From Acidimicrobiia bacterium (GTDB lineage: Bacteria; Actinomycetota; Acidimicrobiia; IMCC26256; JAMXLJ01), in the NCBI GenBank assembly GCA_024281095.1, contig JAMXLJ010000041.1:1-47057 (forward strand): a stretch of 47,057 nucleotides of DNA, in the 5' to 3' direction. Below the pieces are notes generated by a model. It saw nothing but the letters and a program-made list of their open reading frames with translations. It was not told where the DNA came from and did not search any database. Position 1 is the first letter of the stretch; each line of letters starts with the position of its first letter. A program made the position numbers and the translations under genes. This document shows, one piece after another, positions 15,107 to 31,605 of the stretch.

Positions 15107-16306
15107 TTACGGCGTGAGGTCGAGGTCGAAGAGCTCGATGGTGTTGCTTCGGCAGATCTTGCGGGTCGGCGCGTCGTCGAGATCGGCGAACAGCTTCGCG
15201 GCAACTTCGCGGGTGTGCGGCCACGTACCGTCCGCGTGCGGGTAGTCGGTCTCGAACGTCACCTGGTCGACGCCGATCGCGTCCAGGTTCGCGAGGCCGG
15301 CCGGGTCGTCGAAGAAGCACCCGTACACGCGGCCCCGGTAGTACGTGCTCGGAGGTTCGGGGACGCGGTCCCGCACGTCGGTCCACCCGCGGTTGTGCTC
15401 CCACACGCGGTCGGCTCTCGCCAGGATGTACGGGATCCAGCCGATCTGGCCTTCCGAGTACGTGATCCTCACGTCCGGGTATCGGGCGAGGAGACCCGAG
15501 AACAGCCAGTCGGCCAGCGACGCCTCCGCGAGCTCGTGCGTCAGTGTCGACGTGACCGCGGGCGGCGCGTCGGGCGACGTCGACGGCATCTTCGATCCGG
15601 AGCCGCTGTGCATGCAGATCACGGTGCCCGTCTCGTCACACGCGGCCACGAACGGGTCCCAGAAGCGGCCGGCGTCGTGCACCGACGGGAGGCCGAGATT
15701 TCCCGGCAGCTCCGAGAAGCACACCGCCCGCACGCCGCGGGCCGCGTTGCGGCGCACCTCGGCCGCGGCCGCGGCCGGGTCCCACAGCGGGATGAGGCAC
15801 AACGGGACGAGACGCCCACCGGAGCCCGCGCACCACTCGTCGACCATCCAGTCGTTGTACGCGCGCACGCACAGGAGGGCGAGCTCTTTGTCCGACGCCT
15901 CGAGGAACTGCTGACCGCAGAAACGCGGAAACGTCGGGAAGCACAGCGATGCCTCTACGCCGTTCACATCCATGTCGGCAAGGCGTGGATCGCGTTCGTA
16001 GCAGCCCGGTCGCATCTCGTCGTACGTCACGGGTACCACCTGGACGTCGTCGGGCTCGAAGCTGGCCGCGACGCTCAGACGCGTGTGCGGGATCGCAAGC
16101 CGCTCGTAGACCCACCAGTCACCCGCCGGGCCGTCGTCGCCCATGCGGAAGTCGTACTTGCCGCCGAGGAAGGTCATCTCGGCCACAGGCGCCCGCACGA
16201 CGTGCGGGCCGACGTCGCGGTACTTGCGTGGGAGGCGCGTGGTCCACACGTCGGGCGGCTCGATGACGTGGTCGTCGGCCGAGACGATCGGCGGGATCGC
16301 CGTCAT
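15107..16306 (-). CDS. Amidohydrolase-2 (PF04909-type) metal-dependent hydrolase
   Basis: TIM-barrel hydrolase/decarboxylase-type protein of 399 aa. The N-terminal motif is SADDHVIEP (Asp11, His13, Glu16), a barrel His lies in CMHSGSGS, and Asp354 is in FETDYPHADGTWP, the typical final-strand acid. The frame is open well upstream, but ATG 16306 starts at the family motif and overlaps the nitroreductase stop by 4 nt (ATGA), showing translational coupling. It is the last gene of the minus-strand unit. It differs from the 10586 paralogue in loops (long YERDPRLADMDVNGVEASL segment), so the two may not share a substrate. Confidence 0.88.
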   Translation of the reverse strand: MTAIPPIVSADDHVIEPPDVWTTRLPRKYRDVGPHVVRAPVAEMTFLGGKYDFRMGDDGPAGDWWVYERLAIPHTRLSVAASFEPDDVQVVPVTYDEMRPGCYERDPRLADMDVNGVEASLCFPTFPRFCGQQFLEASDKELALLCVRAYNDWMVDEWCAGSGGRLVPLCLIPLWDPAAAAAEVRRNAARGVRAVCFSELPGNLGLPSVHDAGRFWDPFVAACDETGTVICMHSGSGSKMPSTSPDAPPAVTSTLTHELAEASLADWLFSGLLARYPDVRITYSEGQIGWIPYILARADRVWEHNRGWTDVRDRVPEPPSTYYRGRVYGCFFDDPAGLANLDAIGVDQVTFETDYPHADGTWPHTREVAAKLFADLDDAPTRKICRSNTIELFDLDLTP

Positions 16307-16995
16307 CGCGACGACACCCGTGCCGGGTCGGGCACGTACGGGGTGGCCCAGTCGTCGAGGTGCGCGACCTCTGCGAGCGGGCGGCGCCGCGGCTTGCCCA
16401 GGGGCTCGTTTCCGTACCCGAGGAACACGGCCGCTTCGAGGAACATGCGGGGCGGAACGTGCAGCATTTCTTTCACGTCCCGTTCGACGAGGCCGAAGAA
16501 CGTGGTGAACAGCGACGACACGCCGAGCGCGTGCGCGGCGAGCATCATGTTCTGACACGCGGGAAACAAGCTCGAGCCCCGTCCCCCTGGCACGTGCCGA
16601 ACCGGCCGCAGCGTCCCGTCGGCGTTGCGCGCGTACTCGCCCTGCATTCGCACCCCGCGGTCGGGGTTCCAGAACACGAACACGATCGCGCCGACCACGT
16701 CGACATGTTCCACTGCCGCGTGACCCGTCACCGCGCGCCCGGTCCCATCGACGAGCTGGTTCGGAGACTGGGCCCGCTGCTCGTCGACGATCGCGAACGC
16801 GCCCGCCAGCACCGCCTTCAATCCATTCTTCCGGGCGCGGTCGGTGACGACCACAAACTCCCACGGCTGGGTGTTGCCCGAGCTGCACGCACGCGTGGCC
16901 GCGGTGAGGATGCGGTCGAGCAGCTCACGCGGGACGGGCCGGTCCTCGTAGATCCTCGTGGCCCGAAGCCCGGAGATCGCTTCGAACACTTCCAT
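16303..16995 (-). CDS. Nitroreductase-family flavoprotein
   Basis: FMN-dependent nitroreductase-fold protein of 230 aa. The N-terminal half has EAISGLRATRIYEDRPVP and RACSSGNTQPWEFVVVTD, the FMN-binding pattern of the family (R-x-x-R and S-x-N-x-Q-P-W), and the C-terminal half has CQNMMLAAHALG and FLGYGNEPLGKPRRRPL. It may reduce nitro groups, quinones or enones, or act in flavin chemistry. Its ATG lies directly after the stop of the deacylase gene and its stop overlaps the amidohydrolase start, so it is centrally placed in the operon. The electron donor is not evident. Confidence 0.9.
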   Translation of the reverse strand: MEVFEAISGLRATRIYEDRPVPRELLDRILTAATRACSSGNTQPWEFVVVTDRARKNGLKAVLAGAFAIVDEQRAQSPNQLVDGTGRAVTGHAAVEHVDVVGAIVFVFWNPDRGVRMQGEYARNADGTLRPVRHVPGGRGSSLFPACQNMMLAAHALGVSSLFTTFFGLVERDVKEMLHVPPRMFLEAAVFLGYGNEPLGKPRRRPLAEVAHLDDWATPYVPDPARVSSR

Positions 16996-19205: not shown

Positions 19206-20177
19206 TCACCTCCTCGCCGCGGCACCAAGTGCGGCGCGCAGTCGCGGCACCACCTCGTTGCCGAGCTTCTCGATCTGGTCGCGTGCCTCGCCGGGAGAGA
19301 CGCCCGGCACGTGCACGCGCAGGTTCACGCTGTCGGCACCCGCGGCGAGCACGGCGTCCGCGAGCGCATCCGCGACCGCGGAGGCGTCGGTGTCGCCCGC
19401 GAGCTGATCACCCTGCCAGTGCGCCTGGGCTGCGTTGGAGGAGTACCCCCGGTACACGTCGAGCTGTTGCTCGATGCGATCGCGCGGCGGCTCGCCCACC
19501 CACGCACGCCGGATGACGACGCACGGCTGCGCGCCACCCGCGTCGCGGTACGCGTCCGCGAGCTCACGCGCTCGCGAAGGAGCCGACAACGAGTCGAACA
19601 CGAGCCCGACCTCATTGCGCGCGGCCCGTCGCACCGCGGTGAAACCCATCGCCGCGCTGAGCACGGGGACCGGATGATCCTTGCACCGACGGATCGCGGG
19701 GTCATCGGCAAGCCGTCCGGGGTCGCGACCGCTCAGCATCCCGGCTACGACCTCGAGCCCCGCGGCGAAGCGGTTCGCGAGATCGTCGAGGGTCGAATCC
19801 ATGATCTCGAAGTCGTCACGCAATGCGCCGGCGGCGACGCCCAGACCGACGCGGTCGGGGAACCGCGCCGCCAACCACGCGATCTCCTCGGCCACGAGCG
19901 CCGCGGGTCGCAACGGGAGCAGCATCGGGCACGGCGCCGCCCATCCGTGCGGCATCGCCTCGAGCAGCCAACCGGCGGTCTGCAGCGGGTTCGGCAGGTA
20001 GCCGGCGAAGCCACCGTGGTGCTCGGCCGTCATCATGCCGTCGAAGCCGTGCGCCGCGCCCAGCGCGGCCTGCGCGCGCAGTTCCTCGACCACCTTGGGC
20101 GCGGGCAGGTCGTTGTGCGGATACAGGCGCAGCGACACCGTGCCGGGCGCGAACGGCTGCGTGGTGCGACCGCTCAA
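19206..20177 (-). CDS. LLM-class flavin- or F420-dependent oxidoreductase
   Basis: Luciferase-like oxidoreductase of 323 aa. It contains FDGMMTAEHHGGFAGYLPNP in the early barrel, PAALVAEEIAWLAARFPDRVGLGVAAG in the middle and HPVPVLSAAMGFTAVRRAA near the cofactor-binding region, the usual order of LLM proteins. The annotated start is TTG 20177, which overlaps the stop of the upstream cupin (TTGA); GTG at codon 14 is the alternative and would start at VSLRLYPHNDLP. It is flanked by two cupin genes, suggesting an oxidation step followed by further conversion of the product. Confidence 0.86.
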   Translation of the reverse strand: MSGRTTQPFAPGTVSLRLYPHNDLPAPKVVEELRAQAALGAAHGFDGMMTAEHHGGFAGYLPNPLQTAGWLLEAMPHGWAAPCPMLLPLRPAALVAEEIAWLAARFPDRVGLGVAAGALRDDFEIMDSTLDDLANRFAAGLEVVAGMLSGRDPGRLADDPAIRRCKDHPVPVLSAAMGFTAVRRAARNEVGLVFDSLSAPSRARELADAYRDAGGAQPCVVIRRAWVGEPPRDRIEQQLDVYRGYSSNAAQAHWQGDQLAGDTDASAVADALADAVLAAGADSVNLRVHVPGVSPGEARDQIEKLGNEVVPRLRAALGAAARR

Positions 20178-20629
20178 CTTCGGGTGTCCTGCAACCAGGC
20201 CGGCATGTCGATCGGCGGGTTCGGCAGTTGTTCCACTCCCCGCTCTGCGAGCAACGCGGCGTAGCCGGCGGGATCGGCGGGGAACGAGCGGGGGTCGCCC
20301 ATCATCACCTCGAACAGCACGACGCCCTCGGGCCCGGCGATGAACGGGCCGAACGGGTCGCCCCGATCGAGGGCGATGTGGGTTCCGGGCGTGCAGCGCA
20401 CGTCGCCACAGGTCATCTCACCTTCGATGACGAACACGACATGGTCGCTGTTGTGGCCGTGCGCGTGCACGATCATGCCGGGGTCCCACCGGGCGTACAG
20501 CGAGAGGTAGCGGGGCGAGAACTCGAGCCACTTCTCGCGCACCGACGCGGTGCGCTCGTCGTGCTGCTGTCGGCGCACCTCCTGCCACGGCACGTCGTCG
20601 AGGTGCGTGAACCGCGGGCTGCCGGCCAT
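20174..20629 (-). CDS. Cupin-domain protein
   Basis: A 151-aa cupin, first gene of the minus-strand operon. The motif HAHGHNSDHVVFVIEGEM (three early His and a Glu) is the metal-binding core; CTPGTHIALDRGDPFGPFIAGPEGVVLFEVMMGD forms motif 2 and the closing strands. ATG 20629 follows GGGGGAGG. It is not closely similar to the cupin at 18836-19204, so a tandem duplicate is unlikely. Possible roles are an isomerase or a ring-cleavage-type dioxygenase; the substrate is unknown. Confidence 0.85.
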   Translation of the reverse strand: MAGSPRFTHLDDVPWQEVRRQQHDERTASVREKWLEFSPRYLSLYARWDPGMIVHAHGHNSDHVVFVIEGEMTCGDVRCTPGTHIALDRGDPFGPFIAGPEGVVLFEVMMGDPRSFPADPAGYAALLAERGVEQLPNPPIDMPAWLQDTRS

Positions 20630-20773: not shown

Positions 20774-21595
20774 ATGAACGCCATCGAGATCGTCCCGTTG
20801 ACGGCGGCCATCGGCGCCGAGATCCGCGGCGTCGACTTGCGCGAGGGCCTGCCCGACGACGTGGTCGCGACGATCCGCCAGGCGTTGCTCGAACACCTGG
20901 TGCTGTTCTTCCGAGACCAGCCCGTCAGCGACGACGAGCACCTCGCGTTCGCGTTGCGGTTCGGCCCGCTCCACATCTCGCCGCTCGCGACGCGCTACCA
21001 GGACTCACCCGCGGTGACGGTGCTCAACCAGATCGGGCCCCGTGGTGAAGGCGCGGACCAATGGCACAGCGACAACACCTTCCTCGCCGAGCCGCCGGTC
21101 GCATCGATCCTTCGCGCGGTGAAACTTCCTTCGATCGGCGGCGACACCTGCTTCGCGAGCATGTACGCCGCGTACGACGCGCTCTCGCCGGCGATGTGCT
21201 CGTTCGTCGACGGCCTGCACGCAGTGCACGACATCACCAAGGTCATGCGCAAGGCGATCGACGCGGGGCACACGACCCTCGATCTCGCGGAAATGCAACG
21301 ACGGTGCCCACCGGTTGAGCACCCCGTCGCGAAGATCCATCCGGAGACGGGCCGCAAGGCGCTCTTCGTGAACCGCAACTCCACGAGTCATCTCGTCGGC
21401 CTGAGCGAGCGCGAGAACGAGTTGATGCTCGCGTTCCTTTGCGATCACGTTCGCTCGCCCGACTTCCAATGTCGATTCCATTGGGAGCCCGACTCCGTCG
21501 CGTTCTGGGACAACCGCAGCGTGCAGCACTTCGCAGTGCCCGACTACGACGAGCCTCGTGTCATGCACCGGGTCACGATCGGCGGCCCCACGTGA
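20774..21595 (+). CDS. TauD/TfdA-family Fe(II)/2-oxoglutarate dioxygenase
   Basis: Dioxygenase of 273 aa that would hydroxylate a small acid while converting 2-oxoglutarate to succinate. The facial triad is His98 and Asp100 (WHSDNTF) with His252 (QHFAVPDYDEP), and Arg266 (MHRVT) is the 2-oxoglutarate carboxylate ligand, in the same order as TauD. HPETGRKALFVN is the conserved middle motif. TfdA-type members start degradation of aryloxy acids, TauD of sulfonates; the substrate here cannot be told. It heads a coupled operon with MarR and SDR, suggesting ligand-controlled catabolism. Confidence 0.93.
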   Translation: MNAIEIVPLTAAIGAEIRGVDLREGLPDDVVATIRQALLEHLVLFFRDQPVSDDEHLAFALRFGPLHISPLATRYQDSPAVTVLNQIGPRGEGADQWHSDNTFLAEPPVASILRAVKLPSIGGDTCFASMYAAYDALSPAMCSFVDGLHAVHDITKVMRKAIDAGHTTLDLAEMQRRCPPVEHPVAKIHPETGRKALFVNRNSTSHLVGLSERENELMLAFLCDHVRSPDFQCRFHWEPDSVAFWDNRSVQHFAVPDYDEPRVMHRVTIGGPT

Positions 21596-22089
21596 GCGTC
21601 GACCACGTCGACGTGTCCACGCGCTACCTGTCGGAGCCCGGCGCGATCGGCCTGTTCACGCGGCTGACCCGGGTCGGTCTACTCGTAGACGCGTTCCAGC
21701 ACCGGGTGTTCGATCCGTTCGGCCTGCTCTTCGTCGACTACTCCGTGCTGCGGGTGCTCCAACTCGCGGGCCCGCCGTACCGCATGTCGCCGACCGAGCT
21801 GAGCGAGATCGTCGTGCGGTCGAGCGGGGGCATGACCCAGATCGTCGACCGGCTCGAGCGGGCCGACCTCGTCGAGCGGACGGCGGATTCCTCCGATCGC
21901 CGGCGCGTCGTCGTCGGCCTGACCCGCAAGGGCCTGCGCACCGCGGAGCACGCCAACGAGCGGTACGCGCGCGAGCGTGAGCGGCTGCTCGGCGGGCTGG
22001 AACCGGACGAGGTCGACGAGATCGACACCGCGGTGCGCCGGTTGCTCGACGTCCTGAGTGCGGCCGACGTCGCACCGGCGCAGCCATGA
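21592..22089 (+). CDS. MarR-family transcriptional regulator
   Basis: Winged-helix regulator of 165 aa starting at GTG 21592, which overlaps the dioxygenase stop (GTGA). The DNA-binding part reads YRMSPTELSEIVVRSSGGMTQIVDRLERADLV, then the wing SSDRRRVVVGLTRKG with the typical D-R-R. Long helices at both ends fit dimerisation. Its stop overlaps the start of the SDR gene (ATGA). It likely controls this operon and perhaps the divergent cupin operon in response to a substrate; the palindrome at 20682-20695 is a candidate site. Confidence 0.9.
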   Translation: MSVDHVDVSTRYLSEPGAIGLFTRLTRVGLLVDAFQHRVFDPFGLLFVDYSVLRVLQLAGPPYRMSPTELSEIVVRSSGGMTQIVDRLERADLVERTADSSDRRRVVVGLTRKGLRTAEHANERYARERERLLGGLEPDEVDEIDTAVRRLLDVLSAADVAPAQP

Positions 22090-22958
22090 CCCCCTCCTCT
22101 TCCATCGACCTGTCCGGGCGGGTCGTGATGGTCGCGGGCGCAGGCGGCGGCGGGATCGGCACCGCGGTCTGCGCGGAGCTGGCGGGCGCGGGCGCGGCCG
22201 TGCTCGCGCTCGACATCGACCCGAGCCGTCTGGCAGTCGTCGAGAAGGTCCTCGCCGAGGGCGGCGGCCGCTACCGGGCCGTCGTCGCCGACGTGCGCGA
22301 GCCCGCGGCGATCGAGGCTGCGCTCGACCGGGGCACGGCCGAGCTCGGACGCGTCGACGGGCTGGTGCACGTCGCCGGCGGCCTCGGCTACGACCAGTGG
22401 GCCCCGCTCCTCGACCTCGAGCCCGCCACGTTCGACGCGGTGCTCGATCTCAATCTCACGTCCGCGTTCCACACGTCGCGCGCGGTCGCTCGACGGCTCG
22501 TCGCCGCGCGGGCACCGGGAAGCATCGTGCACATCGCGTCCGTCGCCGCGCTCACGGGCATGCCGTTCGGTGCGCCCTATCCGGTTGCGAAGGCGGGTCT
22601 GCTCGCGCTCACCCGCACGGCCGCGCTCGAATGGGGCCGCTACGGGATTCGCGTGAACGCAGTCGCGGCCGGCACCATCCGCACACCGAAGAACGAGTCG
22701 ACGAGCCCCGTCGAGGACACACCCGAAGAACGTGTTGCGCTGCCGCTCGGCAGACGCGGACGTGCTGACGAGATCGCGGGCCCGGTGGTGTTCCTGCTCT
22801 CCGAGCTCGCGTCGTTCGTCACCGGGCAGGTGCTCGCCGCCGACGGTGGCTCGTCGATCCGCCCGTCGTTCCTCGACGCCGATGACCTTCCCGTTTTCGT
22901 GCACAACGAGGATCTCCGGAGCCGCCTCCAGGTGCGGCAGGGGGCGGCGTTCGATTGA
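22086..22958 (+). CDS. Short-chain dehydrogenase/reductase (classical SDR)
   Basis: Classical SDR of 290 aa. The cofactor loop is AGAGGGGIG (18-26), Asp in LALDIDPS favours NAD, and the catalytic residues are Ser152, Tyr165 and Lys169 (YPVAK) with normal spacing. AAGTIRTPKN and VTGQVLAADGGSS are the usual late motifs. The tail after residue 265 is longer than usual (FVHNEDLRSRL). It is coupled to the MarR gene by ATGA. It probably oxidises an alcohol made by the dioxygenase or one downstream; the substrate is not evident. Confidence 0.9.
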   Translation: MTPSSSIDLSGRVVMVAGAGGGGIGTAVCAELAGAGAAVLALDIDPSRLAVVEKVLAEGGGRYRAVVADVREPAAIEAALDRGTAELGRVDGLVHVAGGLGYDQWAPLLDLEPATFDAVLDLNLTSAFHTSRAVARRLVAARAPGSIVHIASVAALTGMPFGAPYPVAKAGLLALTRTAALEWGRYGIRVNAVAAGTIRTPKNESTSPVEDTPEERVALPLGRRGRADEIAGPVVFLLSELASFVTGQVLAADGGSSIRPSFLDADDLPVFVHNEDLRSRLQVRQGAAFD

Positions 22959-23007
22959 GGGTGACCCATCACACCGGTACTGTCGCAGCCGATCTCCAGG
23001 AGGAGCG

Positions 23008-24141
23008 ATGCGCAACGGCCTGAGGATCTTCGACGCGGACGCGCATGTGATCTACCCGGCCGACCTGTGGCCGCGCTTCCTCGACAAGCGCTTCCGCGAT
23101 CGTGTCGGCCGGAAGAGCCCGCCGGGATTCGACCACTACAACCCGGTCACCGTCGACGGCCGGTGGACGCAGCACCCGACGTCGATCTACGGCAACTTCC
23201 AGAAGGCGATCAACTGGACCACCGACGACATGATCGCCAAGTACGGCGAAGAGCTCGTGCTGAAGGGCTTCACCGGTGACCGGGTCGCGCAGGCGCTCGA
23301 GATCGAGGGCGTCGACGTCATGGTGATCTACGGACCCGAGTACGACATGTGGCTCGAAGGCATCGACCCGGACCTGCAGGCCGCGATGGCGCGGGCGTAC
23401 AACCGGTGGGGTCAGGAGATGCGGGAGACGTCGGGCGGCACGGTGCTCGCATCGGGCCCGGTACCACTCAACGATGTGTCGCGTGCCGTGCAGGAGATCC
23501 AGTACGCGCACGACGAGTTGGGGGTCCGTTGCTTCTGGGCCCGCCCCGATCAGTTCAACCACCGCAATCTCGGCGATCGTTACTACGACCCGGTCTACGA
23601 GCTCTTGCAGGACCTCGACTGTGCATTCGCGACGCACGAGTACATGGGCCTGAACGCACCGACGGCGGGATCCGACCGCTTTGCAACCTTCACCGAGTGG
23701 CACACTGTCGTGCACCCGCACGAGGCGCAGGCCGCGATGCTGTCGATGATCGTGCAGGGGGTCTTCGAGCGGTTTCCGCGCCTGCGGTGCGCGTACATGG
23801 AGGCCGGCTGCGGCTGGCTGCCGTCGTGGCTGCACCGCATCGACGAGCATCTCGAGCTCGCCGGCGCGGTCGAGGCGCCCGAGCTGACCATGACGGCAAC
23901 CGAGTACTTCAAGCGCAACTGTTGGATCTCCACGGAGTGCGAGGACCGCTTCGTGGCCGACGTGATCCGCTGGATGGGCGACGACCACATCGTGTTCGAG
24001 ACCGACTTCCCCCACCCCGACTCGAAGTATCCGCACGCCACCGAGCACTTCCTCGGCCTCGGACCCGAGATCGTCTCCGACGACTCGAAGCGCAAGGTCC
24101 TCTGGGACAACGCGGTCGACCTCTACCGCTTCTCCGCATGA
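23008..24141 (+). CDS. Amidohydrolase-2 (PF04909-type) metal-dependent hydrolase
   Basis: TIM-barrel protein of 377 aa. The N-terminal motif is FDADAHVIYP (Asp11, His13), with Tyr16 where several relatives have Glu; the barrel His is in FATHEYMG and the final acid is Asp333 in FETDFPHPDSKYP. ATG 23008 has a strong AGGAGGAG site; the longer open frame overlaps the SDR and is not used. It follows the SDR by 49 bp and is separated from the ligase operon by a strong stem-loop, so it most likely closes the dioxygenase operon. Confidence 0.88.
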   Translation: MRNGLRIFDADAHVIYPADLWPRFLDKRFRDRVGRKSPPGFDHYNPVTVDGRWTQHPTSIYGNFQKAINWTTDDMIAKYGEELVLKGFTGDRVAQALEIEGVDVMVIYGPEYDMWLEGIDPDLQAAMARAYNRWGQEMRETSGGTVLASGPVPLNDVSRAVQEIQYAHDELGVRCFWARPDQFNHRNLGDRYYDPVYELLQDLDCAFATHEYMGLNAPTAGSDRFATFTEWHTVVHPHEAQAAMLSMIVQGVFERFPRLRCAYMEAGCGWLPSWLHRIDEHLELAGAVEAPELTMTATEYFKRNCWISTECEDRFVADVIRWMGDDHIVFETDFPHPDSKYPHATEHFLGLGPEIVSDDSKRKVLWDNAVDLYRFSA

Positions 24142-24160
24142 GGGTCCACCCGGCGACCTC

Positions 24161-24197
24161 GTGTGGATTCCGCGCGTCTAGCGCGGCGAATCCACAC
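24161..24197. terminator. Strong stem-loop between amidohydrolase and ligase genes
   Basis: GTGTGGATTC (24161-24170) pairs perfectly with GAATCCACAC (24188-24197), and the inner CGCGC and GCGCG (24171-24175, 24181-24185) add five pairs around a GTCTA loop, with GC bulged on the 3' side. There is no T-tract. It ends 8 nt before ATG 24206, so it may end the upstream transcript or affect initiation of the ligase gene. Confidence 0.5.
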
Positions 24198-24205
24198 AGG
24201 CTGCG

Positions 24206-25585
24206 ATGAGCTCGTTCCGGCGGCCCTGGCAGGCGGTCGACTACGACGCGCTCGTGCGCGCGTACCCGCCCCCTCCCGAGTACTTCGAGAGCGCGTGGTA
24301 CGCCTCGCCCGAGCAGATCGAGCGGACGCAGCTCACGCGCCTGCGCGAGCGGGCGATCGCGGCGGAGCGGGTGCCGTTCTTCGAGCGCCGGTGGCGCGCC
24401 GCCGGCTTCGACCCACGCTCCATCGAGACGCTCGACGACCTCTGGCGGGCGCCCGCCTACACCGTGGAAGACATCCGCAAGAGCATCGACGCCAACCCGC
24501 CGTGGGGCGACTACCAGGCCGTGGTGCCCCACGAGGCGCTCGCCGAGCCGCTGCGCGTCTACATGTCGGGCGGCACCACGGGGAAGTCGCGGCCGACCTT
24601 CTACACGCAGTGGGACCGTGAGGTGGGTGCCGTCCTCACCGCCCGGGCGCTGTACATGCAGGGAATCCGCCCCGGCGACGTCGTGCTCAACTCGTGGGCG
24701 TACGGCACTCACAACGGCGCGTTCGCGTTCGACGAGGCGCTCCATCGCTGGCTGAACTGCGTGGTGCTCACGACGAGCACCGGCAACGTCACGAGCACGC
24801 AGCGCCAAGTCGAGCTCGCGATCCAGTACGGCGCGAGCGCGATCCTGACGACGGGCGACTACTTGCTGCGACTCGCGGACGCGGCGCGCGAGTTGGGCTA
24901 CGACCCCGCCACGGACCTGAAGATCCGGGCGTTGCCCAACATCGGCGATCGGCGACTGCTCGAGTCGACGTTCGGGGTCGAGTGCTTCAACTCCTACGGG
25001 TTTCACGAGGTGCAGTGGGTATCGGTCGAATGCCCTGCGCACGACGGCCTGCACATCTTCGAGGACGCGTTCGTGGTGCAGATCGTCGATCCGGAGACCG
25101 GTGAGCGTCTGCCCGACGGCGAGCTCGGCTCGATCTGCATCACCGAGCTGTACAAGACCGGCAGTCCGCAGTTCCGGTACAACATCATGGACCTCTCGTA
25201 CCTGTATCCGCGCGAGCGGTGCGCGTGCGGCAGCTGGCTGCGCAAGATGGCGCCGTTCGCCGGCCGCGGCGACAACATGGTGAAGCTGCGCGGTGTGAAC
25301 GTGTGGCCGGAGGCGGTCGGCGAGATCGCGATGTCGGTCCCCGGCGTGGATCCCGACTGGTTCGTGCGCGTCGTGCGCGAGGGCAACCGCGACGAGCTCA
25401 TCGTGTCGGTCGTGAGCTCACGTGCGCCGGCCGAGTGGGCGGCAATCGCGACCGCCGTCGAGGTGCGACTGAAGGAACAGCTCGGCGTCAAGATCGGCGT
25501 CGACGTCGTGGCGCCCGGCGCGCTCGACGCGCTCACCGAAGCGGACGTGGCACCGAAGCTCAAGAGGTTCCGTGATGAGCGCTGA
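24206..25585 (+). CDS. Phenylacetate-CoA-ligase-like adenylate-forming enzyme
   Basis: AMP-binding enzyme of 459 aa in the PaaK-like branch, which activates a carboxylic acid with ATP and joins it to CoA. The phosphate loop is YMSGGTTGKSRPT from Tyr119, the A5 region YGFHEVQ starts at Tyr264, Cys339 and Cys341 form the small Cys pair seen in this branch (CACGSW), and GRGDNMVKLRGVNVWPEAV is the hinge region before the small C-terminal domain. Length fits PaaK. The substrate acid is unknown. It overlaps the next gene by 11 nt and opens the HyuA/HyuB operon, which suggests it activates an acid made or used by that module. Confidence 0.9.
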   Translation: MSSFRRPWQAVDYDALVRAYPPPPEYFESAWYASPEQIERTQLTRLRERAIAAERVPFFERRWRAAGFDPRSIETLDDLWRAPAYTVEDIRKSIDANPPWGDYQAVVPHEALAEPLRVYMSGGTTGKSRPTFYTQWDREVGAVLTARALYMQGIRPGDVVLNSWAYGTHNGAFAFDEALHRWLNCVVLTTSTGNVTSTQRQVELAIQYGASAILTTGDYLLRLADAARELGYDPATDLKIRALPNIGDRRLLESTFGVECFNSYGFHEVQWVSVECPAHDGLHIFEDAFVVQIVDPETGERLPDGELGSICITELYKTGSPQFRYNIMDLSYLYPRERCACGSWLRKMAPFAGRGDNMVKLRGVNVWPEAVGEIAMSVPGVDPDWFVRVVREGNRDELIVSVVSSRAPAEWAAIATAVEVRLKEQLGVKIGVDVVAPGALDALTEADVAPKLKRFRDER

Positions 25586-26462
25586 CGGACGCGTCGTCGA
25601 CTACCTGTGCAACGCGTTCACGCCCGACCGGCAGGCGGTGTGGGACGGCGCCATCGCGAAGGCCGGAATTCCGGTGAAGGTGCGCCGCGACGGGGCCGAC
25701 AGCTTCGCCGAGCCGTCGGCGATGGTGGACCGCATGGACGAGCTCGCGATCGCGACGCTCGTCCTGCCGACGGCGGATCTCAGCCGGCACGGCCTGCTCG
25801 ACCCCGTGGAGGTGGACCACATCTTCTGCCGTTGGGACGAAGCGGAGAAGCTCGCAACCGGCTGGCCGGGACGCTTCGTCGCGGCCGCGGTGATCGATCC
25901 CGAGCGCGGCATGGCCGGCGTGCGGGAGATGCGAAGCCGGCTCACGGAACCGTGGGTTGCCGGCTTCTACGTCCACACGCACAGCTGGGACCGCCGGCTC
26001 GATCACGCCGACTACTACCCGTACTACGCGCTGTGCTCCGAGCTCGACGTGCCGGTCGCGATGCAGACCGGAACCTCGGGCGGCCTGATGGCGAGCGAGT
26101 GTGGGCAGCCGATCACGATCGATCGCGCCGCGCTCTACTTCCCCGAGACACGGTTCGTGTTGTCGCACACGGGCTGGCCCTGGGTCGACGAAGCGGTGTC
26201 GATGGCCTTGAAGTTCCCGAACGTCTATCTGGGCACGGCCGCGTACCCGCCGCGCCACTGGGCCCAGCCGGTGAAGGACTTCGTCCGCGGGCCGGGACGG
26301 ACGAAGGTTCTGTTCGGCACCAACTTCCCCACGGTCGGACACCGTCATGCGCTCGCGCAGATCGACGAGCTCGAGCTCGAGCCCGCGATCCGTGCCGCGC
26401 TGCTCGGCGGGACGGCCCGATCGGTGTACACGCGGCTTGCATCCGAAGGAGAGCCTGCATGA
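25575..26462 (+). CDS. Amidohydrolase-2-like protein lacking the usual metal ligands
   Basis: A 295-aa TIM-barrel protein of the amidohydrolase-2 type: VAGFYVHTHSWDRRLDHADYYPYY, RFVLSHTGWPWVDEAV and KVLFGTNFPTVGHRHAL give the fold. The N-terminal D-x-H-x-H is replaced by Asp9-Tyr-Leu11-Cys-Asn13, and the final-strand Asp is Asn250. Two of the main metal or catalytic positions are therefore gone, while HTHSW and LSHTG histidines remain. It may be a metal-poor enzyme, bind metal differently, or act as a structural partner. ATG 25575 is used; GTG 25572 is one codon longer. It is coupled to the next gene by ATGA. Confidence 0.82.
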   Translation: MSADGRVVDYLCNAFTPDRQAVWDGAIAKAGIPVKVRRDGADSFAEPSAMVDRMDELAIATLVLPTADLSRHGLLDPVEVDHIFCRWDEAEKLATGWPGRFVAAAVIDPERGMAGVREMRSRLTEPWVAGFYVHTHSWDRRLDHADYYPYYALCSELDVPVAMQTGTSGGLMASECGQPITIDRAALYFPETRFVLSHTGWPWVDEAVSMALKFPNVYLGTAAYPPRHWAQPVKDFVRGPGRTKVLFGTNFPTVGHRHALAQIDELELEPAIRAALLGGTARSVYTRLASEGEPA

Positions 26463-26986
26463 TCGGCAAGGTGTACAACATCCCGCCGCAGCCGCCGGTC
26501 GCAGAGAACACGCGCTACCTGCGCGCGGGCGCGGTCACGTTCGGTGTGGAGTATCGAGAGCTGGATCCCGCGTCGCTCGAGGCGACCTACCAAGGCAATG
26601 CGGCCCAGCTCGCGGAGCTCCGCGAGCGCTCTCCCGAGGGCGGCTTCTCCGACGAAGGCGTGTCGATCCACGTGTGCGCAACCGACGACGGTCGCGAGTA
26701 CGTCCGCTTCGACGTGTTCGACGACGAGCCGCACTACCACTACGTGCACCACGACGGCGAAGACATCGTCAACAACGTGATCGACTTCGACCGCGCGGCC
26801 CACGGCGAGATGCTCCCGTGGGCGATCGACAGGCTGCGCACGCGTCTCGCGGCGATGCTCACGGAGGCGGGCGGCGCGCACCTGGTGCCGAGGCTCGAAC
26901 CCGCGCTCATCGGCCCCGTCATCGACGAGGTGGAGCAGCTCGCCGCCCGCGCCCAGCAGGCGCACCGGGCCGCGGCGCGCAAGTGA
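26459..26986 (+). CDS. His-rich protein of unknown function (175 aa) in the Hyu operon
   Basis: Unrecognised 175-aa protein starting at ATG 26459, overlapping the amidohydrolase stop (ATGA), and ending in GTGA overlap with HyuB. It begins MIGKVYNIPPQPPVAENTRY and has a central His cluster EPHYHYVHHDGE (His92, 94, 97, 98), followed by an acidic stretch and a long C-terminal helical region ending QLAARAQQAHRAAARK. The cluster could bind a metal. Its size and place before HyuB recall the small gamma subunit of acetone carboxylase, but the sequence has a single Cys and lacks the Cys pairs of that family, so I do not assign it. Confidence 0.78.
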   Translation: MIGKVYNIPPQPPVAENTRYLRAGAVTFGVEYRELDPASLEATYQGNAAQLAELRERSPEGGFSDEGVSIHVCATDDGREYVRFDVFDDEPHYHYVHHDGEDIVNNVIDFDRAAHGEMLPWAIDRLRTRLAAMLTEAGGAHLVPRLEPALIGPVIDEVEQLAARAQQAHRAAARK

Positions 26987-28719
26987 CGGCCGCACGCGAC
27001 GCGATCACCGCCGAGGTCCTCCGGGCTGCGTTCGCGCTCGCGGCCGAGGAGGCGGGCATCGTCGTCGTGCGCGCCGCGCACTCCACCTTCATCCAGGAGG
27101 GTGCTGACGCGTGCGCGGCGGTGCTCGACACGACCGGCCAACTCGTCGCGCAGTCGGCCGCGACCACGCTGATGCACGGCGCCAGCCTGCGCGCGACGCT
27201 GCCCGCGCTGCTCGCCGACATCCCGCTCGAGCTGATGGAACCGGGCGACGTCTACGTCACCAACGACCCGTATCGCGGCGGCATCCACGCCAACGACCTG
27301 CTCGTGTTCCGGCCCGTGTTCGCCAACGACGAACCACGGTGGTTCGCGGGGACGCTCGTTCACGTCGCCGACGTCGGCGGTGTCGCCGCGGCCGGCCTCG
27401 CCGCCCTCGCCACCGACGTCTTCGCCGAAGGCCTCCTGCTGCCGCCGGTGTCGCTGGTGCGACGGGGCGAGCCGGTGGAGGAGGTGTGGCGCATCCTCGG
27501 ACGCAACAGTCGCAGTCCTGAACGTGTCCTCGGCGACGTGCGGGCGCTGGTCGCGGGCGTCAACGTGATGGCCGCCCGCATCGAAGAGCTCGTCGACCGC
27601 TACGGCGCGACGGCCGTGCGGGCCGAGATCGACGCCGACATCGACTACGTGGCCACTCGCATGCGCGACGAGCTTCGCCGGCTTGCGCGCGGTCGTTACG
27701 AGGGAACCTTCGCGATCGAGAGCGACGGCGTCGATCCCGAGCGAACCTTCGAGGTACGGGTCGCGGTCGAGGTGGGCGACGGCGACGTGACCGTCGACTT
27801 CGACGGCACGTCGGCACAGGCTCGCGGTTCCATCAACAGCTCGCCGTCGCAGACGCTGTCCGCTGTCGTCTACGCGGTCCGCTGCTTCGTGGACCCCACG
27901 ATCCCGATGAACGAAGGGTGCTTCCGCCACGTCGCCGTGCGGGTACCGCGCGGATGCCTCGTGAACCCCGATCCCCCGGCGGCGTGCGGGGGCCGCATCG
28001 TCACGATGTGCGCGGCCATCGAGGCGATCATCGCCGCGCTGTCCGAGGCGAGACCCGACCGGGCGGTGGCGGCAAGTGCGCTGATCCACGTGTACGCACT
28101 GGCCGGCTCAGGAGAGGGCGCTCCGCCGTGGCTGACGCTCGGCTACGAGTTCGGCGGCGTCGGCGCGCGCAACGGGGCCGACGGGCCCGACGCAACGGGC
28201 CCGTACGTGCTCGGCGGCCGCTCGGTGATCACACAGGTCGAGCCGTTCGAAGCGGCGCTGCCGGTGCTCGTCCGCGAGTACCGGCTCCGGGCCGATTCGG
28301 GCGGCGCGGGCACGTTCCGCGGCGGCCTCGGTGTCGAGACGGCCATCGAGGTCCTGTCGGACGCGACGCTCACGTCGCGGGGCGACCGGATCGCGATGCC
28401 TCCGCCGGGCAGCCGCGGGGGCGCCCAGGGCGAGCCGGGGCGGTCGTCGGTGCGGCGGCCCGACGGCCGCGAGGAAGTGCTGGACGCGCGCGCCGCGGGA
28501 GTCGTCCTACGCGCCGGCGATCGCTTCGTGCTGCGAACCTCGGGCGGCGGCGGCTTCGGTCCGCCGCGTCAGCGCGACCCGGCATCGGTGCTCGCCGACG
28601 TGGTGGAGGGCCGCTGCACCCGCGCCCACGCGGAAGAGGTCTACGGCGTGGTGCTCGACGAGGCCGGTACCGCGATCGACGACGACGCAACCAGAATGCT
28701 CCGGGAAACGCCGTCGTGA
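26983..28719 (+). CDS. Hydantoinase B / acetone-carboxylase-alpha-like subunit
   Basis: HyuB-family protein of 578 aa, partner of HyuA in ATP-dependent hydantoinases, 5-oxoprolinases and related carboxylases. Characteristic motifs are YVTNDPYRGGIHANDLLVF (Thr93 to about 110, including His102 and Asp105), DFDGTSAQARGSINS, and PMNEGCFRHVAVRVPRGC; near the C-terminus TSGGGGFGPPRQRDP is the usual HyuB ending. GTG 26983 overlaps the upstream stop and its own stop overlaps HyuA (GTGA). The subunit probably holds the substrate-binding or catalytic metal site of the complex. The reaction, hydrolysis or carboxylation, cannot be set from motifs alone. Confidence 0.92.
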   Translation: MTAARDAITAEVLRAAFALAAEEAGIVVVRAAHSTFIQEGADACAAVLDTTGQLVAQSAATTLMHGASLRATLPALLADIPLELMEPGDVYVTNDPYRGGIHANDLLVFRPVFANDEPRWFAGTLVHVADVGGVAAAGLAALATDVFAEGLLLPPVSLVRRGEPVEEVWRILGRNSRSPERVLGDVRALVAGVNVMAARIEELVDRYGATAVRAEIDADIDYVATRMRDELRRLARGRYEGTFAIESDGVDPERTFEVRVAVEVGDGDVTVDFDGTSAQARGSINSSPSQTLSAVVYAVRCFVDPTIPMNEGCFRHVAVRVPRGCLVNPDPPAACGGRIVTMCAAIEAIIAALSEARPDRAVAASALIHVYALAGSGEGAPPWLTLGYEFGGVGARNGADGPDATGPYVLGGRSVITQVEPFEAALPVLVREYRLRADSGGAGTFRGGLGVETAIEVLSDATLTSRGDRIAMPPPGSRGGAQGEPGRSSVRRPDGREEVLDARAAGVVLRAGDRFVLRTSGGGGFGPPRQRDPASVLADVVEGRCTRAHAEEVYGVVLDEAGTAIDDDATRMLRETPS

Positions 28720-30866
28720 GCAAGTGCTTTCTCGGGGTCGACGTGGGTGGCACGTTCACCGATGTCGTGCTGGCCACGACCGAGGGCGACGTGCACACCC
28801 ACAAGGTGGTGACAACGGCCGGAGATCCGTTGGCGGCCGTGACGCGCGGTGTGCAGGAACTGCTGGCGGCGACCGGCCGCCACGCGGACGAAGTCACCCG
28901 GCTCGTGCACGGCACCACGCTGGCGACGAACATCGTGCTCGAACGGCGGGGCTGCCGGGTCGCGCTCGTCACCACGGAGGGATTCGGCGACCTGTTGCGC
29001 CTCGGCCGCGAAGCCCGGGTGGAGGACGACCGTTACGACCTCTTCTTCTCCGTTCCCGATCCTCCGGTCGAACGGCGCCTCACGTTCGAAGCGCCGGAAC
29101 GGGTGAAGTTCGACGGATCGGTGTTGCGAGCGCTCACGCCTGACGCGGCGCGCACCGTTGCCGCCCGTGTTGCGGCCGAATCGCCCGACGCGGTGGCGGT
29201 GTGCCTCCTCCACTCGTATGCGCAGCCCGCGCACGAGCACCTGCTCGGCGCCGCGCTACGCGACGCGTTGCCGTCGTCGTTCGTCACCGTGTCGTCCGAC
29301 GTGTGGCCGGAGCTTCGCGAATACGACCGTGCGATGACGACGACGCTGTGCGCGTACGTCGGCCCGGTAATGGCTGCCTACCTCCACCGGTTCCAGGCTG
29401 CGGTGCGCGCCCTCGGCGTGCCCTGCGCGGTCGAGGTCATGGACTCGAGCGGCGGAGTCATGCCGGCGTCGCGCGCTGCAGTCGTCCCCGTCGCCACGAT
29501 CGAGTCGGGTGGTGCGGCGGGCGTGCTCGCGGCCGCGCTGACCGGGCGTTGGCTCCACGAAGATCGGGTCGTGTCGTTCGACATGGGCGGCACGACCGCG
29601 AAGACCGGCGTGGTACGGGCCGGGCGACCGGACGTCACCTACGACTTCCAGGTCGGCGGGCGCGGGAGCTTCGGCTCGCGGCGTGTCGGTTCCGGGCTGC
29701 CGGTGAAGCTGCCGGTCGTCGATCTCGCGGAGGTCGGCGCGGGCGGCGGGAGCATCGCGTGGGTCGACCGCGGCGGCGCCGTGCGGGTCGGCCCTCGATC
29801 GGCCGGCTCGTCGCCCGGGCCGGCGTGCTACGGCTGGGGCGGCACCGACGCCACGGTCACGGACGCCGACCTCGTGCTCGGCTATCTGGCTGCGGATCGT
29901 CTCGGACGTCCTTCGACGGCGCCCTCCGCCCCCGATCCGGACGGCATCGCCCCGCGCTTCGCTCCGTCCCCGGGCGGCGTGGACCTGCAGATCGACCTGG
30001 CCGCCAAGGCGCTCGAGCAATCGGTCGCCGAGCCGCTCGGGATCGACGTCGCGACCGCGGCCGGTCTCGTGCACGAGGTCGTGAACGTGAACATGGCCGC
30101 CGCGATCCGCGTCGTCACCGTGCAGCGGGGCATCGATCCGCGCGAGTTCACCTTCGTCGGGTTCGGCGGCGCGGGGCCGGTGCACGTCGCCCGACTCGCG
30201 CAGATGTTCGGCGTGCGACGGGTCGCGGTGCCGTGGGCGGCCGGTGTCGGCTCGGCACTCGGCCTGCTCGCGACCGACATGATCGTCGAACGCGCCCGCA
30301 CATGCGTCATGGACCTCACCGCGGTTGCGGCACGCATGATCGAGGATCTGTTCACCACGCTCGAGCGCGACGCGTGCATCGCGCTCGGCGTCGGCGAAGG
30401 CGGCGAACGCCTCGTCGAACGGTCGGCTGACCTCCGGTGGGCGGGCCAGAGTCATCAGCTCACGGTGCCGTTGCCGCGCTCGACGTTCGACGCCGCGCAG
30501 CTCGCCGCCCTGCCGGGCGAGCTGGCGCGTGCGTACCGCGCCGCGTACGGCGTCGACGGCACCGGTGACGCGCAATTCGTGACCGCGAGGGTGCGCGTGA
30601 CCCGTTCCGTCTCCAAGATCACGGTGCCGCCTCGCGGGCGCCCTGCCGCGCCGTCCTGGCCGGAACCGGCGACGGTGCGCGACGTCTGGTTCGCCGACGA
30701 CGGCGGCTTCCGGCCCGTGCCCGTGCACCACTGGCGCGCCCTCCGACCGGGGGACCAGCTCACCGGGCCCGCGCTGGTCGAAGGGCCCGACACCACGATC
30801 GTGGTTCCACCCGGGTTCACGGCGTCGGTCGATCAGTGGCGCACCGTCGTGCTGGAGACGGGCTGA
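28716..30866 (+). CDS. Hydantoinase A / acetone-carboxylase-beta-like ATPase subunit
   Basis: HyuA-family protein of 716 aa with the actin/Hsp70-like ATPase fold. The phosphate loops are DVGGTFTD (9-16) and DMGGTTAK (289-296), the adenosine region is GFGGAGPVHVARLAQMFG, and HGTTLATN and RLGREARVEDDRYDLFF are family motifs. It would phosphorylate or otherwise activate a carbonyl or lactam for the HyuB partner. GTG 28716 overlaps the HyuB stop by 4 nt. It ends the five-gene operon and is followed by a strong bidirectional stem-loop. Confidence 0.92.
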   Translation: MSKCFLGVDVGGTFTDVVLATTEGDVHTHKVVTTAGDPLAAVTRGVQELLAATGRHADEVTRLVHGTTLATNIVLERRGCRVALVTTEGFGDLLRLGREARVEDDRYDLFFSVPDPPVERRLTFEAPERVKFDGSVLRALTPDAARTVAARVAAESPDAVAVCLLHSYAQPAHEHLLGAALRDALPSSFVTVSSDVWPELREYDRAMTTTLCAYVGPVMAAYLHRFQAAVRALGVPCAVEVMDSSGGVMPASRAAVVPVATIESGGAAGVLAAALTGRWLHEDRVVSFDMGGTTAKTGVVRAGRPDVTYDFQVGGRGSFGSRRVGSGLPVKLPVVDLAEVGAGGGSIAWVDRGGAVRVGPRSAGSSPGPACYGWGGTDATVTDADLVLGYLAADRLGRPSTAPSAPDPDGIAPRFAPSPGGVDLQIDLAAKALEQSVAEPLGIDVATAAGLVHEVVNVNMAAAIRVVTVQRGIDPREFTFVGFGGAGPVHVARLAQMFGVRRVAVPWAAGVGSALGLLATDMIVERARTCVMDLTAVAARMIEDLFTTLERDACIALGVGEGGERLVERSADLRWAGQSHQLTVPLPRSTFDAAQLAALPGELARAYRAAYGVDGTGDAQFVTARVRVTRSVSKITVPPRGRPAAPSWPEPATVRDVWFADDGGFRPVPVHHWRALRPGDQLTGPALVEGPDTTIVVPPGFTASVDQWRTVVLETG

Positions 30867-30884
30867 ACCGCCGGCCACCGCCAA

Positions 30885-30927
30885 CTGGCGTCACTTCACC
30901 CGCGCAGAGGGGGTGAAGTGACGCCAG
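30885..30927. terminator. Perfect 17-bp stem, bidirectional terminator between convergent genes
   Basis: CTGGCGTCACTTCACCC (30885-30901) pairs with GGGTGAAGTGACGCCAG (30911-30927), 17 pairs without mismatch around a 9-nt loop. It lies between the ends of HyuA and the convergent peroxiredoxin gene. No T-tract is present, as is common for such hairpins in high-GC actinobacteria. Confidence 0.75.
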
Positions 30928-30948
30928 AAGGGTTGTGGGGCCGTGCGG

Positions 30949-31605
30949 CTACCTGGGTTGGGGAACGATGCGGATGTAGGGCTTCGGCTCCTTCCAGCTG
31001 CCGAAGACCTCCTTGGCCTCGTCGTTCGAGACCGACCCCGCGATGATGACGTCGTCACCCTGCTTCCAGTTGACCGGCGTCGCCACGCGGTGCTTCGCGG
31101 TGAGCTGCAACGAGTCGATCACCCGCAACACCTCGTCGAAGTTGCGGCCCGTCGTCATCGGGTACACGAGGATCAACTTGACCTTCTTGTCCGGCCCGAT
31201 GACGAACACGTTGCGCACCGTCTGATTGTCCGCCGGCGTGCGCTGCTTCGGGTCCCCCGACGTGCTCGCCGGCAACATCCCGTACAGCTTCGACACGTTG
31301 AAATCCGCGTCACCGATGATCGGATAGGCCGGCCGCGCTCCCTGGGTCTCCTCGATGTCGTCGGCCCAACCCTTGTGATCATTGGTCGAGTCAACCGACA
31401 GGCCGATGATCTTCACGCCGCGACGCTCGAACTCGGGCTGCAGCTTCGCCATGTAGCCCAGCTCCGTGGTGCACACGGGCGTGAAGTCCTTCGGATGCGA
31501 GAAAAGGACCGCCCACGAGTCCCCGATCCAGTCGTGGAACTTGATCCGGCCCTGCGTAGTGTCGGCCTCGAAGTCGGGTGCGGTATCGCCAATCTGCAGT
31601 CCCAT
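30949..31605 (-). CDS. 1-Cys peroxiredoxin (Prx6 type)
   Basis: Thiol peroxidase of 218 aa that reduces hydrogen peroxide or organic hydroperoxides in the cytoplasm. The peroxidatic Cys45 is in HPKDFTPVCTTELG, and it is the only Cys in the protein, as expected for the 1-Cys Prx6 group; the C-terminal extension with ATPVNWKQGDDVII is also typical. ATG 31605 follows GAGGAGGAAC. Its own promoter probably lies in the 120-bp gap to the next gene. Function in relation to the oxygenase and LLM genes is plausible but not shown. Confidence 0.95.
   Translation of the reverse strand: MGLQIGDTAPDFEADTTQGRIKFHDWIGDSWAVLFSHPKDFTPVCTTELGYMAKLQPEFERRGVKIIGLSVDSTNDHKGWADDIEETQGARPAYPIIGDADFNVSKLYGMLPASTSGDPKQRTPADNQTVRNVFVIGPDKKVKLILVYPMTTGRNFDEVLRVIDSLQLTAKHRVATPVNWKQGDDVIIAGSVSNDEAKEVFGSWKEPKPYIRIVPQPR

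Follow-up and report, generated by a model that had tools for sequence, protein, structure and literature searches.

We analysed a 47,057-base contig (JAMXLJ010000041.1; hereafter the window) of the 4.39-Mb draft genome, in 177 contigs, of an Acidimicrobiia bacterium. Between positions 24206 and 30866 it carries five + strand genes, encoding a PaaK-like acyl-CoA ligase, a degenerate amidohydrolase-fold protein (AHd), a DUF7700 protein, and the hydantoinase-type proteins HyuB and HyuA (together HyuBA). An earlier note, made from the letters of this DNA, had reported overlaps of 11, 4, 4 and 4 nt through the five genes, and starts and stops read from the sequence bear this out. All five gave strong profile matches (Table 1), labelled in gene order PaaK-type AMP-binding C-terminal domain, Amidohydro_2, DUF7700, Hydantoinase_B and Hydantoinase_A. 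The same note saw a module bounded by strong stem-loops. Both hairpins are present (folding z −4.95 for 24142-24205 and −6.23 for 30867-30940; 0 of 200 shuffles fold equally well), but the left one lies inside a longer same-strand cluster. Genes for a TauD relative, a MarR regulator, a short-chain dehydrogenase (SDR) and a further amidohydrolase-fold protein, AH2, run right up to it on the same strand, and because AH2 is among the best-conserved members of the cluster, this hairpin is not the cluster edge. At the related locus L033, the gap between AH2 and ligase is about 15 nt, too short for such a hairpin. Searched for as a repeated element, the left hairpin had exact matches in the window at its own two arms only. 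The right hairpin, between convergent genes, is plausibly a two-way terminator.

Table 1. Genes and hairpins of the cluster, in window coordinates.
Feature	Position	Strand	Matches and remarks
TauD/TfdA-family 2-oxoglutarate dioxygenase	20774..21595	+	PF02668 3.9e-70; NCBIfam taurine dioxygenase 271 bits, below 313 cut-off
MarR-family regulator	21613..22089	+	PF12802 1.5e-10; GTG start likely at 21613
Short-chain dehydrogenase (SDR)	22086..22958	+	PF13561 1.8e-58
AH2, amidohydrolase-fold candidate dinuclear oxygenase	23008..24141	+	PF04909 family; AGGAGG Shine-Dalgarno-like before 23008
Left hairpin	24161..24197	.	16-nt arms, 88% complementary
PaaK-like (phenylacetate-CoA-ligase family) AMP-forming acyl-CoA ligase	24206..25585	+	PF14535 2e-11
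AHd, degenerate metal-ligand-free PF04909 protein	25575..26462	+	PF04909 2e-31
DUF7700 protein	26459..26986	+	PF24777 6.5e-33; 113.4 bits vs gathering threshold 25
HyuB, 578 aa	26983..28719	+	PF02538 1e-147
HyuA, ATP-binding (ASKHA) subunit	28716..30866	+	PF01968 1.5e-76
Right hairpin	30885..30927	.	17-nt arms, 100% complementary
Peroxiredoxin	30949-31605	-	convergent with HyuA

Contigs of GTDB-representative genomes were searched with a ligase alignment, which yielded 59 loci, and neighbouring genes were counted by profile searches of six-frame open reading frames. The window and 58 loci with a usable ligase match gave 59 loci, mostly from Acidimicrobiia and other Actinomycetota (Streptomycetaceae included) and from Myxococcota/Deltaproteobacteria, with one distant match in Rhodocyclaceae. 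Two cultured Yinghuangia (L040, L042) carry the core of the cluster. AHd accompanied the ligase most often (52 of the 59 loci), followed by AH2 (35), DUF7700 (30), TauD relatives (18) and HyuBA (4); at the 35 loci with at least 4 kb on both flanks, the corresponding counts were 32, 23, 16, 9 and 2. Three of the seven loci without AHd have a contig end close to the ligase. Phyla are intermixed in the ligase tree, and the partner genes persist across it. Of 247 surveyed genomes of the class, 8 hold the ligase, 13 hold DUF7700 and 7 hold the two together (hypergeometric p 1.3e-9), with the genes no more than about 1.1 kb apart in every case; among 396 genomes of the phylum, DUF7700 was found in 7, and all 3 with a close ligase ortholog hold it (p 3.4e-6). 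Co-occurrence p values, here and below, serve as a guide only, the genomes being related by descent. L033 groups TauD, MarR, SDR, HyuBA, AH2, ligase, AHd and DUF7700 at one locus, its MarR homologue being 73.5% identical. In a plasmid collection, the ligase was at most 37% and AH2 at most 32% identical, DUF7700 was not found, and no characterised degradative plasmid emerged to suggest a substrate.

The association of AH2, PaaK-like ligase, AHd and DUF7700, often with TauD, is thus very probably a conserved unit. It recurs in at least two bacterial phyla and is uncharacterised; known families are met in a new combination, in which only DUF7700 is a blank.

The adenylation motifs of the ligase are intact (P-loop SGGTTGK, YGFHE, GRGDNMVKLRG and the C-terminal Lys region), and it matches PaaK in the PDB at 9.8e-68. 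Fold and motifs are therefore shared with the phenylacetate-CoA ligase PaaK, but the scores lie far below the equivalog cut-offs (204.7 versus 646.3 bits; 205-218 versus 646-700 over the NCBIfam PaaK models). The orthologs form a group of their own, at 62-83% identity with one outlier at 49%. We take the protein, from these motifs, as a putative AMP-forming acyl-CoA ligase of the phenylacetate-CoA-ligase family acting on a carboxylic acid, in agreement with the CoA-activation step that had been proposed.

AH2 is 63-86% identical among its relatives, and in the PDB its profile finds PtmU3, AibH2 and related chains. Its metal-site residues are D23, H25, H222, E277, D345 and H348, with the second-shell acid D350 (numbering from codon 22972; codons at 23038, 23044, 23635, 23800, 24004, 24013 and 24019). 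All six ligands (D-x-H, H, E, D, H) and D350, within TDFPHPD, are kept without exception by the 34 orthologs. They align with the dinuclear-site ligands D25, H27, H211, E265, D337 and H340 of AibH2 and with its D342, and an acidic residue two positions after the beta-8 His has been reported only for binuclear members (PMC7782822). The equivalent acid of PtmU3 is E313, and the metal-site residues of LynB7 match all seven of AH2 (PMC10127204). A model of AH2 (mean predicted local distance difference test, pLDDT, 81.9) gave Z scores of 35.8 with PtmU3, 34.7 with DitZ, 34.6 with SfbO and 34.1 with AibH2, and the top 13 of the structural list consist of these four, other oxygenase candidates and 4dzi. 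Fold and metal site are thus common to AH2 and to PtmU3 (the platensimycin diiron hydroxylase), AibH2, SfbO and LynB7. Unlike these, AH2, known here from its sequence and model, lies in a catabolic setting with AHd and DUF7700 and without an adjacent Rieske protein. PtmU3 hydroxylates CoA-bound diterpenoids (PMC10127204), and because its substrates are CoA-bound, the ligase gene beside AH2 is meaningful.

AHd had been described as a degenerate amidohydrolase, and indeed it lacks all six of the canonical metal ligands, the beta-8 Asp being replaced with Asn or Gly. It is not decaying, since more than 50 positions are kept in over 93% of 52 orthologs, including H134, H136, D139, H198 and H256. 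Its nearest PDB chain is 3irs, which has no assigned function. A parallel is the AibH1H2 heterotetramer, whose two amidohydrolase-fold proteins come from the same cluster and differ in that only one has a complete dinuclear site. However, AibH1 retains five ligands and one Zn, whereas AHd has none; AHd is also shorter, and nearer 3irs and LigW-type chains. The AibH1H2 complex is known, whereas AH2 and AHd are paired here by synteny. AHd may play the noncatalytic part that AibH1 plays for AibH2; alternatively, it may be a metal-free enzyme.

The DUF7700 orthologs align over an invariant E..RFD.F....HYHY core, and the model (pLDDT 96.7) shows a beta sheet and, at the C terminus, a long helix. 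Foldseek searches of the PDB and of viral models, together with VIA-align, gave weak matches only (best E 0.018); the best Z, 4.3, was to lipid-transfer and PTB-like chains, and we draw no function from these matches. A literature search returned nothing on DUF7700. The earlier note had grouped this small protein with HyuA/HyuB in one route. At 27 loci it stands with the ligase where HyuBA is lacking, and as HyuBA is present at only 4 of the 59 ligase loci and DUF7700 at 30, it is not a HyuAB subunit. As a candidate for the gamma subunit of acetone or acetophenone carboxylase it was rejected as well, having one Cys and no profile match and being kept without HyuBA. A second DUF7700 group, beginning MAIDR(E/Q)ESPYRRGNRY, occurs away from the ligase at L029, L030 and L031, with weak Amidohydro_2 relatives nearby at L029 and L031.

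HyuBA occurs in the window and at L032, L033 and L043, codirectional with the ligase in the window only. Elsewhere it is divergent or, in genome G119, on another contig of the draft, and a five-gene unit is not supported; in relatives the ligase half stays together and the HyuAB half does not. The proposed link of HyuA to the ligase pathway fared better: a HyuA of at least 50% identity was found in 5 of the 247 class genomes, 4 of which hold the ligase (p 2e-6). HyuA forms a 100/100 clade with the HyuA proteins of L032, L033 and L043. On the ligase tree, the distribution of HyuBA needs two to three changes, the Myxococcales locus being far from the other three, which implies either repeated loss of the association or more than one origin or move. 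HyuBA is tied to the ligase pathway, yet optional. An SDR orthologue was present only at HyuBA loci, namely L033 (58% identity) and L032 (cut by the contig end), scoring 328 and 164 bits against a background of at most 120.

Several features of HyuBA point to a hydrolase. A two-subunit make-up and a beta subunit of hydantoinase length characterise the Hyd type (PMC5214803); the cluster contains HyuB and HyuA only, with no gene for a gamma, alpha' or epsilon subunit, and the 578 residues of HyuB compare with 581 in CapB, 684 in Apc and 776 in Acx. The NCBIfam caprolactamase models scored 443 + 258 bits versus 244 + 131 for acetophenone carboxylase, all below cut-off; for HyuB alone, this is 258 bits with CapB versus 131 with ApcD. 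HyuA was split from ApcC+AcxA at 98/99, in a tree of 12 rows in which its place relative to CapA and N-methylhydantoinase is not resolved; four of the rows are reference sequences transcribed from alignments, and Apc alpha' and 5-oxoprolinase are not among the rows. From an alignment with CapB, the metal tetrad of HyuB is intact (D42, H102, D105, H127; codons 27106, 27286, 27295, 27361), and HyuA has the ATP motifs DVGGTFTD, DMGGT and PGP; both signatures are common to the carboxylases as well.

Caprolactamase CapAB and N-methylhydantoinase resemble HyuBA in two-subunit make-up, lengths, ATP motifs and the Asp-His-Asp-His site of HyuB. N-methylhydantoinase, however, lacks the fourth metal ligand that HyuB keeps, and relative to CapAB, HyuBA is distant in sequence, has no counterpart of the vicinal Cys pair of CapB, carries a Lys for Asp302 of CapA, and is encoded in the order B-A. 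Indoleacetate degradation includes the opening of a CoA-bound lactam by an enzyme of the HyuAB type (PMC5214803). This enzyme of Aromatoleum, the 2-oxoindoleacetyl-CoA gamma-lactamase IaaCE, is likened to HyuBA by description, and its pathway is anaerobic. To our knowledge, no AH2, AHd or DUF7700 goes with it.

A number of points weigh against a cluster built around the ligase and an oxygenase. Identity of AH2 to characterised oxygenases is just 20-24%, and AH2 orthologs are missing from about one third of the long-flank ligase loci. The substrate of the ligase is still to be assigned. A Rieske-motif gene recurs nowhere within about 10 kb of AH2 (single cases at L035 and L052), whereas some 90% of AibH2-like genes adjoin a small Rieske ferredoxin (PMC10401708). 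This ferredoxin is a usual companion rather than a catalytic feature, and other members may use a distant reductase. Some PF04909 proteins are hydratases or hydrolases, and most characterised enzymes of the family are of the mononuclear hydrolase, hydratase or decarboxylase type. It could be, although we find it rather unlikely, that AH2 is such a mononuclear enzyme, acting on a CoA ester or a ring-cleavage product in an ordinary ring-opening pathway. The absence of a redox partner gene nearby and the 47 PF04909 matches in the genome would fit, as would the structural nearness of ACMSD and LigW (Z 30-32); these decarboxylases follow closely, the best mononuclear Z being 32.2 versus 35.8, a modest margin. 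Yet oxygenase structures occupy the top of the list, and the six dinuclear ligands and the binuclear-only acid are all invariant. We therefore favour, with some reserve, an amidohydrolase-related dinuclear oxygenase. The constancy of AHd raises another, less probable scheme, in which the decisive reaction downstream of the ligase falls to AHd itself, acting, say, as a hydrolase or thioesterase that needs no metal, while AH2, DUF7700, TauD and HyuBA tailor different substrates. The many conserved residues of AHd would suit this scheme, and it counts against the oxygenase reading that the role of AHd stays unexplained while its polar residues are highly conserved; the complete loss of metal ligands, the altered beta-8 Asp and a nearest structure of no known function speak against it.

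For HyuBA, the earlier note preferred an ATP-dependent carboxylase of the acetone/acetophenone type, with the ligase activating the product, like benzoylacetate-CoA ligase after acetophenone carboxylase; in this reading, the small protein would be an extra subunit. The core subunits of these carboxylases are homologous to HyuBA, a CoA ligase gene follows Apc in Aromatoleum (PMC5214803), and HyuB keeps the metal tetrad that carboxylases share with lactamases. Two observations count against a hydrolase. The gene order at all four loci is HyuB then HyuA, not the usual A-B, and HyuA Lys296 (codon 29601), in place of CapA Asp302, equals Lys281 of Apc alpha', which is presumed, tentatively so in the source paper, to bind bicarbonate. 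We rejected Lys296 as proof of carboxylation: it is common to 11 of the 11 nearest HyuA proteins examined, a broad branch. By their sequences, the lysine-type HyuA proteins form a branch in which none of the members compared is characterised, and because HyuA belongs to it, carboxylation is kept as a rival. Separately, two types of HyuA, DMGGTTAK (lysine) and DMGGT-x-x-D (aspartate), were seen at L001-L003 and L100-L110, and the lysine type appears to lack a characterised stand-alone member among those compared. The carboxylases, on the other hand, have three to five subunits including gamma, a longer beta subunit and a separate branch in the HyuA tree; DUF7700, with its single Cys versus the four-Cys metal site of gamma and no Pfam match to it, is not that subunit, and at most loci DUF7700 and ligase are kept without HyuBA. 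We thus hold carboxylation to be improbable, and HyuBA is likely a hydrolase, the lactam or hydantoin type that had been listed as the alternative. A chance or transient juxtaposition of the five genes, without a shared pathway, appears still less credible: the codirectional arrangement is indeed peculiar to the window, the pair being inverted or on another draft contig elsewhere, but the same HyuA subfamily stands beside the ligase in both Actinomycetota and Myxococcota, and the genome-level co-occurrence is strong.

Our preferred reading, to which we give an even chance, is that the run from 20774 to 30866 (TauD-MarR-SDR-oxygenase-ligase-AHd-DUF7700-HyuB-HyuA) is a catabolic operon for a carboxylic acid. 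The ligase would make the CoA thioester of the acid, and the PtmU3-like AH2, with an Fe/Fe or Mn/Fe site, would hydroxylate the CoA-bound acid with O2. The metal-free pseudo-amidohydrolase AHd and DUF7700 would assist the ligase and AH2, whether as partners or in an accessory role. A further step in this lineage might be conversion of the resulting alcohol or hemiaminal to a carbonyl by the SDR; the product, a ring resembling a lactam or imide, would be opened by HyuBA with ATP, through phosphorylation in HyuA and metal-assisted hydrolysis in HyuB; the 2-oxoindoleacetyl-CoA gamma-lactamase would offer a parallel for this last step. Gene content, conservation and residue signatures are observed, whereas we infer the substrate and every reaction step, and that the whole chain holds is doubtful.

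Other features were noted around these loci. A gene for a small cupin-like protein adjoins the cluster in the window (20174-20629, − strand) and at 17 other loci. Elsewhere in the window, the protein encoded at 15107-16888 (− strand) also belongs to Amidohydro_2 and, having D-x-H..EP and ETDYPHAD motifs, is likewise a candidate dinuclear oxygenase; it is neighboured by an Amidohydro_3 protein, a luciferase-like monooxygenase and a cupin-like gene. Several of the 47 PF04909 (Amidohydro_2) matches of the 4.4-Mb genome lie within the window, a large family expansion. Downstream of the ligase, an ADP-forming (NDP-forming) acyl-CoA synthetase-like protein, assigned by eye, was seen at 15 loci (L066, L070, L073-L077, L079-L081, L085, L090, L040, L049 and L078). 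The cluster is also present in L041 (CAMAYJ010000019.1), titled Bifidobacterium breve; it groups with environmental actinobacterial metagenome-assembled genomes in the ligase tree and is probably such a genome itself, mislabelled.

Dinuclear oxygenases with the amidohydrolase fold have been recognised as a class only recently; a mere handful have been characterised, and most of these came to light through a Rieske gene next door. As a speculative and rather improbable extension, AH2, AHd and DUF7700 could make up a new multicomponent type of amidohydrolase-related oxygenase. In it, a dinuclear catalytic subunit would be joined by a wholly metal-free partner of the amidohydrolase fold and by DUF7700, a new fold with an accessory or effector role; the enzyme would need no cognate Rieske protein, its substrates would be CoA thioesters from the co-encoded ligase, and a lysine-type HyuBA would open the oxidised ring. 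The annotation of such loci can be corrected in one respect, as the presence of HyuA and HyuB next to a CoA ligase is no sure sign of ketone carboxylation. The cluster also provides a context in which DUF7700 and a metal-free amidohydrolase relative can be tested, and if true, the class of dinuclear oxygenases would be widened by a conserved Rieske-less cluster that pairs AH2 with a CoA ligase.

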